A DNA stretch of 38,420 bases from a candidate division WWE3 bacterium RIFOXYD1_FULL_43_17 (GTDB lineage: Bacteria; Patescibacteriota; WWE3; UBA101185; UBA10185): assembly GCA_001773385.1 (NCBI GenBank), contig MEWJ01000057.1:1-38420 (forward strand), written 5' to 3'. Shown in pieces: positions 9,363 to 14,770 of this stretch; within the stretch, counting starts at the first letter, position 1, and each line of letters begins with the position of its first letter. The translations under genes were made by a program, and so were the position numbers. The notes beneath the pieces are model-generated. The model ran no database searches. It was not told where the DNA came from and saw only the letters and a list, made by a program, of their open reading frames with translations.

Positions 9363-10394
9363 ATGCCCATCGTAGGTTTAAATTTTGGAAGAAGCACATT
9401 TAGAGCTGTAGAACTGGATAAACGCAAGGAAGGATTGATAGTTTCCAACATCGGTACATACGAAAACCCTAAAATTAACTTTTTATCCGATAAAAATGAG
9501 GATATGGACTCGATTGCCGAGCATATTGCCGAGTTTTTTAAAGAAATGGGGTTCGGGACCTCCCACGTGGTTATGGGACTTGATGAGAGCCAGGTGTTTA
9601 TGCGTGTCATAAAAGTTCCGGTGATGAGCGACAAAGAGCTTAAAAGTGCTGTCAGATACGAAGCGGAACAATACATTCCCCTGCCCCTCGATCAGATAAA
9701 TCTTTCCTACCAAAGACTGGATCCCGATCTTACTGAGAAGGACAAAATAAATGTCCAGGTGGTTGCCGCCAAAAAAGATGTACTCGAAAGGTATGTGGCT
9801 ATCGCCAAGAAAGCAAAACTCGTTCCCTATGCGATAGAGCCGGAGACCATAGCGTTGGGTAGAGTCTTGGGCGACTCCTCCGCCGCTCCTCTTGGAACCA
9901 TAGTGATGGATATGGGATTTTCAGGCTCGATAATTGTTGTTACTTACGGAGGTGCGGTAAGGTTTACAAGAACTATTCCGGTGGGTGGGGACATAATTAC
10001 AAAAGCAATCCAACAGGAACTTAATCTGGATATTCAACAGGCCGAAGAATACAAAAAGGTTTATGGAATGGACCCAATGCAGGCAGAAGGCAAGATATTT
10101 AATGTCATCAGGCCGGTAATGGACAACTTAATTCTCGAAATAAAAAGAGCAACTGTATTCTTCACAAAGCATAATAGCTCTGCTAACATTAAGAGGTTGA
10201 TACTGACCGGAGGAACTGCCCTAATGCCCGAACTTTTAACTTACATAGCAAAAAATGTTGATTTTGAAGTACAGCTTGCCAATCCATTGGCAAACTTCCA
10301 ACTTTCACCAAAATTAGAACCAAGAAGAAAGGATCTCAGCCTGGACGGCCCGATGTACTCTACTGCTGTCGGTTTGGCCTTGAGGGAGGTTTAA
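9363..10394 (+). CDS. pilM: Type IV pilus assembly protein PilM
   Basis: GLNFGRSTFRAVEL, AVRYEAEQYIPLPLDQINLSYQ, VMDMGFSGSIIVV, LTGGTALMPELL: actin-like PilM signature. Confidence 0.93.
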   Translation: MPIVGLNFGRSTFRAVELDKRKEGLIVSNIGTYENPKINFLSDKNEDMDSIAEHIAEFFKEMGFGTSHVVMGLDESQVFMRVIKVPVMSDKELKSAVRYEAEQYIPLPLDQINLSYQRLDPDLTEKDKINVQVVAAKKDVLERYVAIAKKAKLVPYAIEPETIALGRVLGDSSAAPLGTIVMDMGFSGSIIVVTYGGAVRFTRTIPVGGDIITKAIQQELNLDIQQAEEYKKVYGMDPMQAEGKIFNVIRPVMDNLILEIKRATVFFTKHNSSANIKRLILTGGTALMPELLTYIAKNVDFEVQLANPLANFQLSPKLEPRRKDLSLDGPMYSTAVGLALREV

Positions 10395-10970
10395 ATGGAA
10401 AATATTAACCTTATTCCACAGGAAGAAATACAGTATCAGGCTAAGGGTAAGGCTGTAAAAGGCACAACAGTATTTTTCATTTTGTTGACCGTCGCGGCTC
10501 TTGGTGTCTCAGGGTATCTTTACTACACGCACTCTGAAATTTCTACAAAGGCGGCTGACGTAGCCAACCAGATAGAGAGCCAGAGAGCAAAAATAAAATC
10601 CCTCTCCGCAACCGAAGTAATCGTCAGAAACCTGGATAAAAAATACAACTCTATCTCGAAACTAATCGCAGAGCGTCCCCACTACTCCCGTCTACTTGCT
10701 GAACTTCAGGTGAGACAGCCGGAAGGTGTGAGAATTGAGTCCATGGACATAAAGGACGGAATCGTAAACTACACTGGTGACGCGGATAATTACATCTTGA
10801 TCGCCAATTTTATAAATAGTCTATTAAATAAGGATTTTCCGGGAGGTGACCCGGAACTAAAGGATTTGTTCACCGAGGTGAAGCTTAATTCCGTCACTCT
10901 CGACCAGAATAAAAGCACCGTAAGATTCTTTATTGTAGTCAACTACGACACAACAAAAATAAAATTATGA
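10395..10970 (+). CDS. pilN: Type IV pilus assembly protein PilN
   Basis: INLIPQEE start, single TM, coiled coil; follows pilM. Confidence 0.85.
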   Translation: MENINLIPQEEIQYQAKGKAVKGTTVFFILLTVAALGVSGYLYYTHSEISTKAADVANQIESQRAKIKSLSATEVIVRNLDKKYNSISKLIAERPHYSRLLAELQVRQPEGVRIESMDIKDGIVNYTGDADNYILIANFINSLLNKDFPGGDPELKDLFTEVKLNSVTLDQNKSTVRFFIVVNYDTTKIKL

Positions 10971-11836
10971 ACGAAGAAAATATAGAAAATAAAATTAAGG
11001 AATTAAACCTAAGCGCAATTAAAGATGTAATTGTGGATTTTGTATTTCCGATTATCGGTTTGGGTATTACAGTTGTGTTGTTCTTTGTCTACATCAAACC
11101 TACCTACGCCAAAGTTAATGAACTTAAACAACAGGTGACTGAACGAACTGCGGTGCTGGAAGTTTTAAACACCAAAGCTGCGGCCCTTACAAAAATGAAA
11201 GACTTTAACACGGTTTTGGAAGAAAATGCCAGCCTGGTGGAAAGATTGTATGTTTCGGAGTCAAACGTTCCTCAACTTCTCGACCAGGTTCATCAAATCG
11301 CAACTAACGCAGGAATGTCCGTGGACCGTTTGAATTATTCTTACTCCGGAGGAACAACAGGTGCGAACGCTGATGCTATCGCAGATCAAAGGAAAGAAGA
11401 TATTAGCGGGGTTGTTAATGTTGCTGCGACGGTAACCGGTTCTTATGAGCAGATGGTCGTGTTCATGCAGGAAATTGAGAAGGCAGCGAGAATTGCCTAC
11501 GTCACCACTTTCAGATTTGGGAAAGATTCAAATATAAGTGCTGATACTTTGATAAACGTAAATGTAAATGTTGACTCACCCTACATGTATGTACAATCTA
11601 TCGCCGTGACCGATGATCCTATTACTTTGGATATTACTTCACCGGCTTTTGTCGCGTTCATGAACAGTGTGAAAGATTACAAATATTACGAATTTCTTAA
11701 CCCCGATATAGTCACTACCGAAGAAGTTGAAACCACGGAAACAGCTGTTCCTGCAGGAGAAACTTCTGAGCAACCACTTGTGGAACAACCGGCCGTAGAA
11801 CAACCTGATGAGCCAGAGACACCGTTTGACTTGTAA
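10967..11836 (+). CDS. pilO: PilO-like pilus assembly protein
   Basis: N-terminal TM, coiled coil, position after pilN, overlapping start. Confidence 0.75.
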   Translation: MNEENIENKIKELNLSAIKDVIVDFVFPIIGLGITVVLFFVYIKPTYAKVNELKQQVTERTAVLEVLNTKAAALTKMKDFNTVLEENASLVERLYVSESNVPQLLDQVHQIATNAGMSVDRLNYSYSGGTTGANADAIADQRKEDISGVVNVAATVTGSYEQMVVFMQEIEKAARIAYVTTFRFGKDSNISADTLINVNVNVDSPYMYVQSIAVTDDPITLDITSPAFVAFMNSVKDYKYYEFLNPDIVTTEEVETTETAVPAGETSEQPLVEQPAVEQPDEPETPFDL

Positions 11837-12749: not shown

Positions 12750-13112
12750 TTAAGCCTGTTCGGGGGTTTCTTCGGTAGCTGGTGCAGTCTCTTCGGTTAC
12801 AGATTTTTCTTCTTTGACTTCTTTTTCTGTACCTTTTTCTGCAGTTTCTTCTTTACCGGGCCTGTATTTTGTGTATTCGTATTTTCCTTCTACAATTCTT
12901 TTCACTGCGTCCGATACAATTGCGCCCTTTGATATCCAATCCTGGAATTTTTTCTTGTCGTAGTCAAATGATGCGGGGGTTGTTGACGGATTATAATATC
13001 CGATCAAATCCAAATATTTACCGTCTCTTTTGGTTCTGGTTTGCGTAGCCACCATTCTGTAAGATGGTAAATTTTTTCGCCCTGTTCTTGTTAATCTGAT
13101 TGTTACCGACAT
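12750..13112 (-). CDS. rpsP: 30S ribosomal protein S16 with acidic C-terminal extension
   Basis: VTIRLTRTGRKNLPSYRMVATQTRTKRDGKYLDLIGYYNP. Confidence 0.95.
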   Translation of the reverse strand: MSVTIRLTRTGRKNLPSYRMVATQTRTKRDGKYLDLIGYYNPSTTPASFDYDKKKFQDWISKGAIVSDAVKRIVEGKYEYTKYRPGKEETAEKGTEKEVKEEKSVTEETAPATEETPEQA

Positions 13113-13167: not shown

Positions 13168-13866
13168 TTAATCGCCTTTTTCCATTCTTTTTAAACCACT
13201 TTCAGCCGCTGCCTGCTCAGCTCTTTGCTTGCTTTTTCCTTCTCCGATGCCCCAACTCTCTTTGCCTATGAAAACACCCATCTTAAAGGTTTTTTCGTGG
13301 TCAGGTCCCCAGGAATCTATTATCTGGTAAACCGGTGTTATGCCGAATTTGTCCTGTGCCATTTCCTGAAATTGGGATTTTGAGTCTTTGAAGATGTCGT
13401 TGTCGACTATGTTGGAAATTTTGGAGAAGAGCTCTTTTTCCAGGAATTGACGGCATATTTCAAGTCCTCTATCAAGGTAAAGGGCACCCAGCACTGCTTC
13501 GAAAGTGTTGGCCAGTATATATTCCCGTTCTCTGCCTCCTGTTGCTTCCTCGCCGTTAGACAGGAGAAGAAGACTGCCATATCCCATCCTTTTAGCTTCC
13601 TGAGCCAGAGAGGATGTGCATACTACCGATGAGCGGTAGTTTGTCATTTCTCCCTCGGGAGCTTCGGGGTAGGTTTTGTAGAGAAATTCGCTGGATAGAA
13701 GCTGAAGTACGGCGTCCCCCAAAAATTCCAGCCTTTCGTTAGAAGGGTTTTCGCATTCGTGGTGTTCGTTTAAGTACGAGCGGTGAGTAAAGGCTGTTTT
13801 AAACAGATTTTCATCATCCAGGTCCGGACCTAATATTTGTTTTGTTTTATCGAAATCAAACGGCAT
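13168..13866 (-). CDS. rnc: Ribonuclease III
   Basis: NERLEFLGDAVLQLL, dsRBD-like C-terminus GEGKSKQRAEQAAAESGLK. Confidence 0.96.
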   Translation of the reverse strand: MPFDFDKTKQILGPDLDDENLFKTAFTHRSYLNEHHECENPSNERLEFLGDAVLQLLSSEFLYKTYPEAPEGEMTNYRSSVVCTSSLAQEAKRMGYGSLLLLSNGEEATGGREREYILANTFEAVLGALYLDRGLEICRQFLEKELFSKISNIVDNDIFKDSKSQFQEMAQDKFGITPVYQIIDSWGPDHEKTFKMGVFIGKESWGIGEGKSKQRAEQAAAESGLKRMEKGD

Positions 13867-13935
13867 TATCTACTTTTCCGTGCCCGTGCCGAACTTTCTC
13901 CGCGACACCCGTCACGGGTAAAATACGGCCGGATA

Positions 13936-14172
13936 CTAATCAATTTTCTCACTAAGCAGGTCTATTAAATCCTGCACTGTTACAATGTTTTCCTGCTCAG
14001 ACACCAGCTCTACCTGAAACATTTCTTCAAGTTCGGAAAGTATCTCGAGAAGCTCCATTTCACCTACGTTAAGATCGTCCTCGAAAAACGAGCTTTCGTG
14101 TATTTCAGAGGGAGAGACGCCCGCTTTTTCCTCTATAACCTTTTTAGTTTTTGCAAAATATTCGCTATTCAT
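13936..14172 (-). CDS. Acyl carrier protein-like protein lacking the phosphopantetheine Ser
   Basis: ESSFFEDDLNVGEMELLEILSELEEMFQVEL aligns to the ACP DSL region with GEM replacing DSL; adjacent to rnc. Confidence 0.8.
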   Translation of the reverse strand: MNSEYFAKTKKVIEEKAGVSPSEIHESSFFEDDLNVGEMELLEILSELEEMFQVELVSEQENIVTVQDLIDLLSEKID

Positions 14173-14602
14173 CTTTTTTCTCCAAATAAATTCCTATAAC
14201 TGTGCCGAGAACCCCGTTCACAAATTTGTGTGAAGTGTCGTTCCCGAACTCTTTGGCCAGTTCGACGGCTTCGTCCACCACAACCTTGACCGGTGCCTTT
14301 TTACCGAACAGCAACTCAAAGACCGCAATTCTGAGTACTACTAAATCAACTTTGGCTATTTTGTCAATAGGCCACTCCGGCGCACTTTCTTCGATTACCT
14401 TATCTATCTCGTTAATATGGGATTTGACACCCTCAAAAATGTACTCAGTCAGCTCGGTGTCTTGTTCACCCGGCTGTTCTTCCAAAAGGTCTTTTGACAA
14501 CATAATTGCGTCCGTTTTATCGGTTTCCGTAAACAGCCAGCAAAAAATAGAGGTCAAAGCTAGTTTTCTGGAAGTGTGCCTCGGATCCGCGAAAGATTTC
14601 AT
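14165..14602 (-). CDS. nusB: Transcription antitermination protein NusB
   Basis: SRKLALTSIFCWLF, VDLVVLRIAVFELLF, VVVDEAVELAKEFG, KFVNGVLG. Confidence 0.93.
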   Translation of the reverse strand: MKSFADPRHTSRKLALTSIFCWLFTETDKTDAIMLSKDLLEEQPGEQDTELTEYIFEGVKSHINEIDKVIEESAPEWPIDKIAKVDLVVLRIAVFELLFGKKAPVKVVVDEAVELAKEFGNDTSHKFVNGVLGTVIGIYLEKKDE

Positions 14603-14623: not shown

Positions 14624-14770
14624 TTAAAGCTCGATATACTCTTCAACGTGAGGTCTTTTGTAAGCTTTGTTGTCCGAAGTTTTTACAGCCTGAACGCGCA
14701 CTCTTTTGTAGTGAGCGCCTCTCTTTTTTCTTGTTCTTGATAGAGAATGTTTTCTTTTTGGTACTGCCAT
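14624..14770 (-). CDS. rpmF: 50S ribosomal protein L32
   Basis: MAVPKRKHSLSRTRKKRGAHYK; start corrected from 14842. Confidence 0.93.
   Translation of the reverse strand: MAVPKRKHSLSRTRKKRGAHYKRVRVQAVKTSDNKAYKRPHVEEYIEL

Follow-up and report, generated by a model that had tools for sequence, protein, structure and literature searches.

A serine-less acyl carrier protein-like protein encoded between nusB and rnc in WWE3 bacteria

The gene acpL, found in a 38,420-nt stretch of DNA that was analysed as a whole (the window), encodes AcpL, a protein with the fold of an acyl carrier protein (ACP) and with glutamate in place of the serine that carries 4'-phosphopantetheine. Our analysis indicated that AcpL is very probably a serine-less ACP fold working outside fatty acid synthesis. 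A role of another kind is likely because the fold is non-modifiable, the protein appears to be under purifying selection, and searches of the host genome yielded no AcpS, no ketoacyl synthase and no further ACP. To that extent the structural or regulatory role proposed in the initial annotation held up, while its argument from the position beside the RNase III gene did not.

Results

The host genome comprises about 863 kb in 59 contigs, and its closest named relatives belong to candidate division WWE3 (Katanobacteria); one of them, RAAC2_WWE3_1, is a complete genome. The acpL ORF starts with ATG and lies in the gene cluster listed in Table 1, where profile matches to both neighbours bore out the nusB-ACP-rnc neighbourhood described in the initial annotation.

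Table 1 Features of the window at and around acpL
Feature	Position	Strand	Description
acpL	13936..14172	-	78-aa Ser-less ACP-like protein; profile, sequence and fold matches
Codon GAA (Glu38)	14059..14061	-	replaces the phosphopantetheine Ser (E. coli Ser36); by alignment
D33-L34-N35-x4-E40	14053..14076	-	four residues invariant in the WWE3 alignment, residue 38 variable
nusB	14165..14602	-	overlaps the acpL start by 8 nt; above the NCBIfam equivalog cut-off
rnc (RNase III)	13168..13866	-	downstream of acpL; above the NCBIfam equivalog cut-off
acpL stop codon and spacer	13867..13938	-	folds as a single long hairpin with interruptions, directly ahead of rnc
rpmF-like (ribosomal protein L32) ORF	14624..14770	-	upstream of nusB; named by eye
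rpsP-like (S16) ORF	12750..13112	-	downstream, same cluster as acpL; named by eye
Three consecutive ORFs	9363..11836	+	resemble pilM-pilN-pilO of type IV pilus; by eye only

As shown by profile searches, NCBIfam ACP models matched AcpL with E-values down to 1.5e-12, all scores being under the curated cut-offs; the protein scored 16.4 bits against PF00550 (cut-off 20.8) and 37.7 bits against TIGR00517 (cut-off 70.45). AcpL is acidic, with a pI of 4.05 and a net charge of about -16. Its AlphaFold model had a pLDDT of 88.6, with helix II beginning at residue 38, and was matched by Foldseek to the crystal structure of an apo-ACP (6lvu) with a TM score of 0.91 and an rmsd of 1.2 A, so that model and structure search both gave the four-helix ACP fold.

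The serine site was examined by alignment. The phmmer alignments of AcpL with solved ACPs were gapless across the DSL region (best E 6.7e-8) and matched Glu38 to the Ser36 position of E. coli AcpP, and a second alignment, with E. coli AcpP as the reference row, gave the identical register. AcpL therefore lacks the DSL motif with its 4'-phosphopantetheine serine, and the glutamate reported at this site in the initial annotation was confirmed by ORF, codon and alignment. Recovery of a serine by better alignment was ruled out by phmmer, by the WWE3 alignment and by the combined alignment. The earlier statement that the flanking helix-II residues are kept proved right in part: the equivalent of E. 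coli D38 is E40, which is invariant in the WWE3 alignment, and the equivalent of D35 is Gly.

The gene order nusB-acpL-rnc was kept across the WWE3 class, 34 of whose 45 genomes have acpL between its two neighbours. The gene is present in 26/27 genomes of the host's own family, where the single genome without it also lacks rnc, which is probably an assembly gap. Serine was absent from 32 of the 34 WWE3 copies, residue 38 being Glu in 20, Asp in four, Gly, Ser and Thr in two each, and Gln, Ala, Pro and Arg in one each, while D33, L34, N35 and E40 were invariant in a 29-row WWE3 alignment. In 30 nusB-linked copies from other CPR families the site was occupied by Pro (15), Asp (5), Ala (4), Glu (3) or, once each, Ser, Ile and Leu, so that 29/30 lacked serine. 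Taken together, 61/64 nusB-linked CPR copies were without serine, three had one and none had DSL, although a few divergent rows of the combined alignment have a gap or a shift at the serine-site column; the loss of serine thus extends to homologues at the locus, with varied replacements. By comparison, CPR ACP-like proteins away from nusB-rnc carried serine in seven of eight cases.

Within the host's genus, dN/dS was 0.04-0.09 for acpL, compared with 0.02-0.04 for nusB and rnc. These sequence comparisons indicate that the AcpL protein is constrained and under purifying selection, with the serine site free to vary. Beyond the class, a broad profile found matches at E <= 0.001 in 31 of the roughly 346 CPR genomes sampled, and some of these matches were ordinary DSL ACPs or multidomain enzymes. 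As far as the sampled genomes indicate, the serine-less linked form is the rule in the host's own family, frequent across the class and sporadic beyond it, though divergent copies may have been missed. Five families of the WWE3 class have lost acpL cleanly, which makes the gene dispensable there; in the nine acpL-less genomes of these families, nusB and rnc are directly adjacent.

The search for the machinery of fatty acid synthesis and ACP modification, called for in the initial annotation, gave no profile match in the host genome for AcpS (PF01648) or ketoacyl synthase (PF00109), and AcpS together with such enzymes was therefore not found alongside AcpL. A PF00550 search for a second ACP was likewise without match, and the idea of a canonical ACP elsewhere in this genome was dropped on that result. 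In the class as a whole, AcpS was not matched in 42/45 genomes and was matched in three, and ketoacyl synthase was matched in 0/45, compared with 14 of 14 control genomes, these absences being profile-search negatives in mostly draft genomes.

AcpS in the three class genomes was set aside as a sign of AcpL modification because of its context. In two of them, AcpS lies directly beside an AMP-ligase/ACP/acyltransferase protein with a PP-binding domain of its own, a single protein combining AMP-ligase, PP-binding and acyltransferase domains (L217 in G005 and L216 in G038). In the third (G016), its cluster includes an ORF that by eye resembles an AMP-ligase. The three-domain protein of G005 and G038, together with AcpS, could possibly form a route for using scavenged fatty acids. 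G038 has both AcpS and a serine-bearing nusB-linked copy, so a modified form of AcpL is possible in that genome.

To compare the locus with ordinary ACPs, we collected 29 ACP rows from 28 Chloroflexota genomes, chosen mainly for few PF00550 matches. Serine was present in 27 of the 29 rows. An ACP had nusB just upstream in 23/29 rows, 17 of them with fabD before nusB, and rnc followed the ACP in seven rows, the full nusB-ACP-rnc order occurring in only three. Many of these ACPs carry DLNADSL (EDLNADSLDLVELI), of which DLN is common to WWE3. The simplest reading is that CPR acpL would be a relict of a FAS-II operon, passed on by vertical descent with the enzymes lost and the serine decayed; the case for such descent is built on gene order and the DLN signature. 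An 81-column tree did not resolve a single origin of the CPR and Chloroflexota copies, and its use for dating the serine loss was dropped since the columns were too few. Transfer of acpP into Patescibacteria has been reported, in passages that make no mention of the nusB-rnc locus (PMC12455944).

One Chloroflexota group showed a parallel change. At L081, L083, L173 and L174 the nusB-linked ACP has Pro at the serine site, and the upstream FabD is without its catalytic serine (GHGVG or GHGAG), both genes being kept. L173 and L174 grouped in the tree with support of 100/95, and the L081 FabD still scored above the FabD cut-off. At L175, from a different Chloroflexota genome whose ACP has DSL, FabD keeps GHSLG. 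Genomes G314 and G402 each yielded one PF00550 match.

The spacer between acpL and rnc was also examined. Spacers of about 70-90 nt formed a single long hairpin with regular internal loops immediately 5' of rnc, and those matching the spacer in the window were found at L002-L006, L009, L011, L015 and L018. For the spacer alone, shuffling gave p values of 0.001-0.075, and covariation was slight; two shorter spacers that were tested had no such hairpin, and an Rfam search around the hairpin gave no match. This element is a candidate RNase III processing or self-regulation site.

Discussion

With moderate confidence, we read AcpL as a phosphopantetheine-free adaptor descended from a FAS-II ACP. 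AcpL would derive from an ancestral acyl carrier protein of this type; the synthase genes would have been lost in the lineage, the serine would have decayed, and the four-helix protein would have been retained as an adaptor without the carrier group. It would probably bind a partner protein through the start and the acidic face of helix II, the putative binding face being formed by D33-L34-N35, E40 and nearby acidic residues. In normal ACPs, this surface serves for partner recognition.

AcpL resembles bacterial AcpP of FAS-II in fold, length, acidity and helix II, and resembles the Chloroflexota nusB-linked ACP in lying beside nusB, with the DLN signature in many of the latter. Unlike AcpP, it lacks the serine, and its genome gave no match for AcpS or ketoacyl synthase. 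The closest parallel is the mitochondrial ACP of Plasmodium falciparum, which is without the phosphopantetheine group, persists although its compartment has lost FAS-II, and stabilises Isd11-Nfs1 (PMC8547962). Both have lost the carrier serine or its group, FAS-II is missing in the malarial compartment and apparently in the AcpL host as well, and both genes are conserved, a similarity of state that does not imply the same lineage. The malarial protein, which belongs to a eukaryotic organelle, is needed as a binding partner of Isd11-Nfs1, whereas such a role is only inferred for bacterial AcpL, which may work in principle in the same way, the same partner not being implied. ACPs also act as protein-binding partners outside fatty acid synthesis in E. 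coli, where AcpP acts on IscS (PMC13343975) and, according to two other reports, on MukB and SpoT (PMC8602292; PMC3340395). Unlike AcpL, E. coli AcpP is modifiable, and AcpL has neither D35 nor S36, on which the contact with IscS depends.

A more specific form of the adaptor reading would make AcpL a dedicated partner of NusB, binding or capping it and tuning rRNA antitermination or processing. NusB is the leading candidate partner, at a low probability, and fusions of the two proteins make it the best lead. In another CPR family, f60, NusB and AcpL form one ORF in 3 of the 14 genomes, spanning two genera (L123/L106 in G104, L127 in G324 and L132 in G323), and in G104 both the NusB and the ACP domain were recognised by NCBIfam models. 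This fusion is the only direct hint of a partner. The 8-nt overlap of acpL with nusB in the window, and the adjacency of nusB both to the linked CPR copies and to the 23 Chloroflexota rows, would also fit such a pairing; however, inheritance is the simplest explanation of the adjacency, and genes that overlap are readily fused. Moreover, the AcpL part has no DLN loop in 2/3 fusions, and five WWE3 families that have lost acpL still have nusB. The ACP part was seen to be reduced in L127 and L132. It is improbable, though of interest, that in WWE3 and in several further CPR families a phosphopantetheine-free ACP has become a standing subunit of the machinery, linked to NusB, that transcribes or processes rRNA.

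The initial annotation had pointed to RNase III as a possible partner from the adjacency of rnc. The adjacency of acpL and rnc, and the overlap of the acpL stop codon with the rnc start codon in several WWE3 genomes, would suit this proposal, which is nevertheless quite improbable. Ordinary DSL ACPs can have the same neighbour in Chloroflexota, and in the nine genomes without acpL the RNase III gene still follows nusB directly. If acpL is left over from a FAS-II operon, its place beside rnc would be inherited and is not evidence for RNase III as a partner, and the neighbourhood was set aside as such evidence after the Chloroflexota loci were seen. The structure prediction with RNase III that had been suggested, carried out on an AcpL-linker-RNase III read-through, gave two confident domains, a pTM of 0.55 and no docking signal, which, without PAE or a baseline, is a weak test.

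A very improbable reading is that AcpL takes part in Fe-S cluster assembly through contact with a cysteine desulfurase. The model for it is the malarial mitochondrial ACP, which binds Isd11-Nfs1 although it has neither carrier group nor FAS-II (PMC8547962). A complete relative (G001) does have two cysteine desulfurases by motif scan rather than profile search, but both best match the SufS family, one above and one just under its cut-off, and fall far under the IscS cut-offs. The ACP of E. coli interacts with IscS and not with SufS, an interaction that depends on D35, S36 and D38 (PMC13343975); AcpL has Gly, Glu and Glu at these positions. An IscS-type role was thus weakened by both the SufS-like desulfurases and the missing contact residues. 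The least probable reading is that AcpL is functionless and decaying, as the lost serine, the loss of acpL in five families and its degeneration in two fusions might suggest, since the dN/dS values, the invariant D33, L34, N35 and E40 and the presence of acpL in nearly all own-family genomes speak against it.

In the open-access full texts that were searched, no paper describing a serine-less nusB-rnc ACP was found. The nusB-linked position and the DLN signature held in common with Chloroflexota would fit a CPR-Chloroflexota relationship. AcpL seems to be a bacterial equivalent of the malarial ACP, in that an ACP has outlasted both fatty acid synthesis and its own carrier group. It offers a chance to ask which roles ACPs have besides acyl carrying, in bacteria apparently without the usual function.
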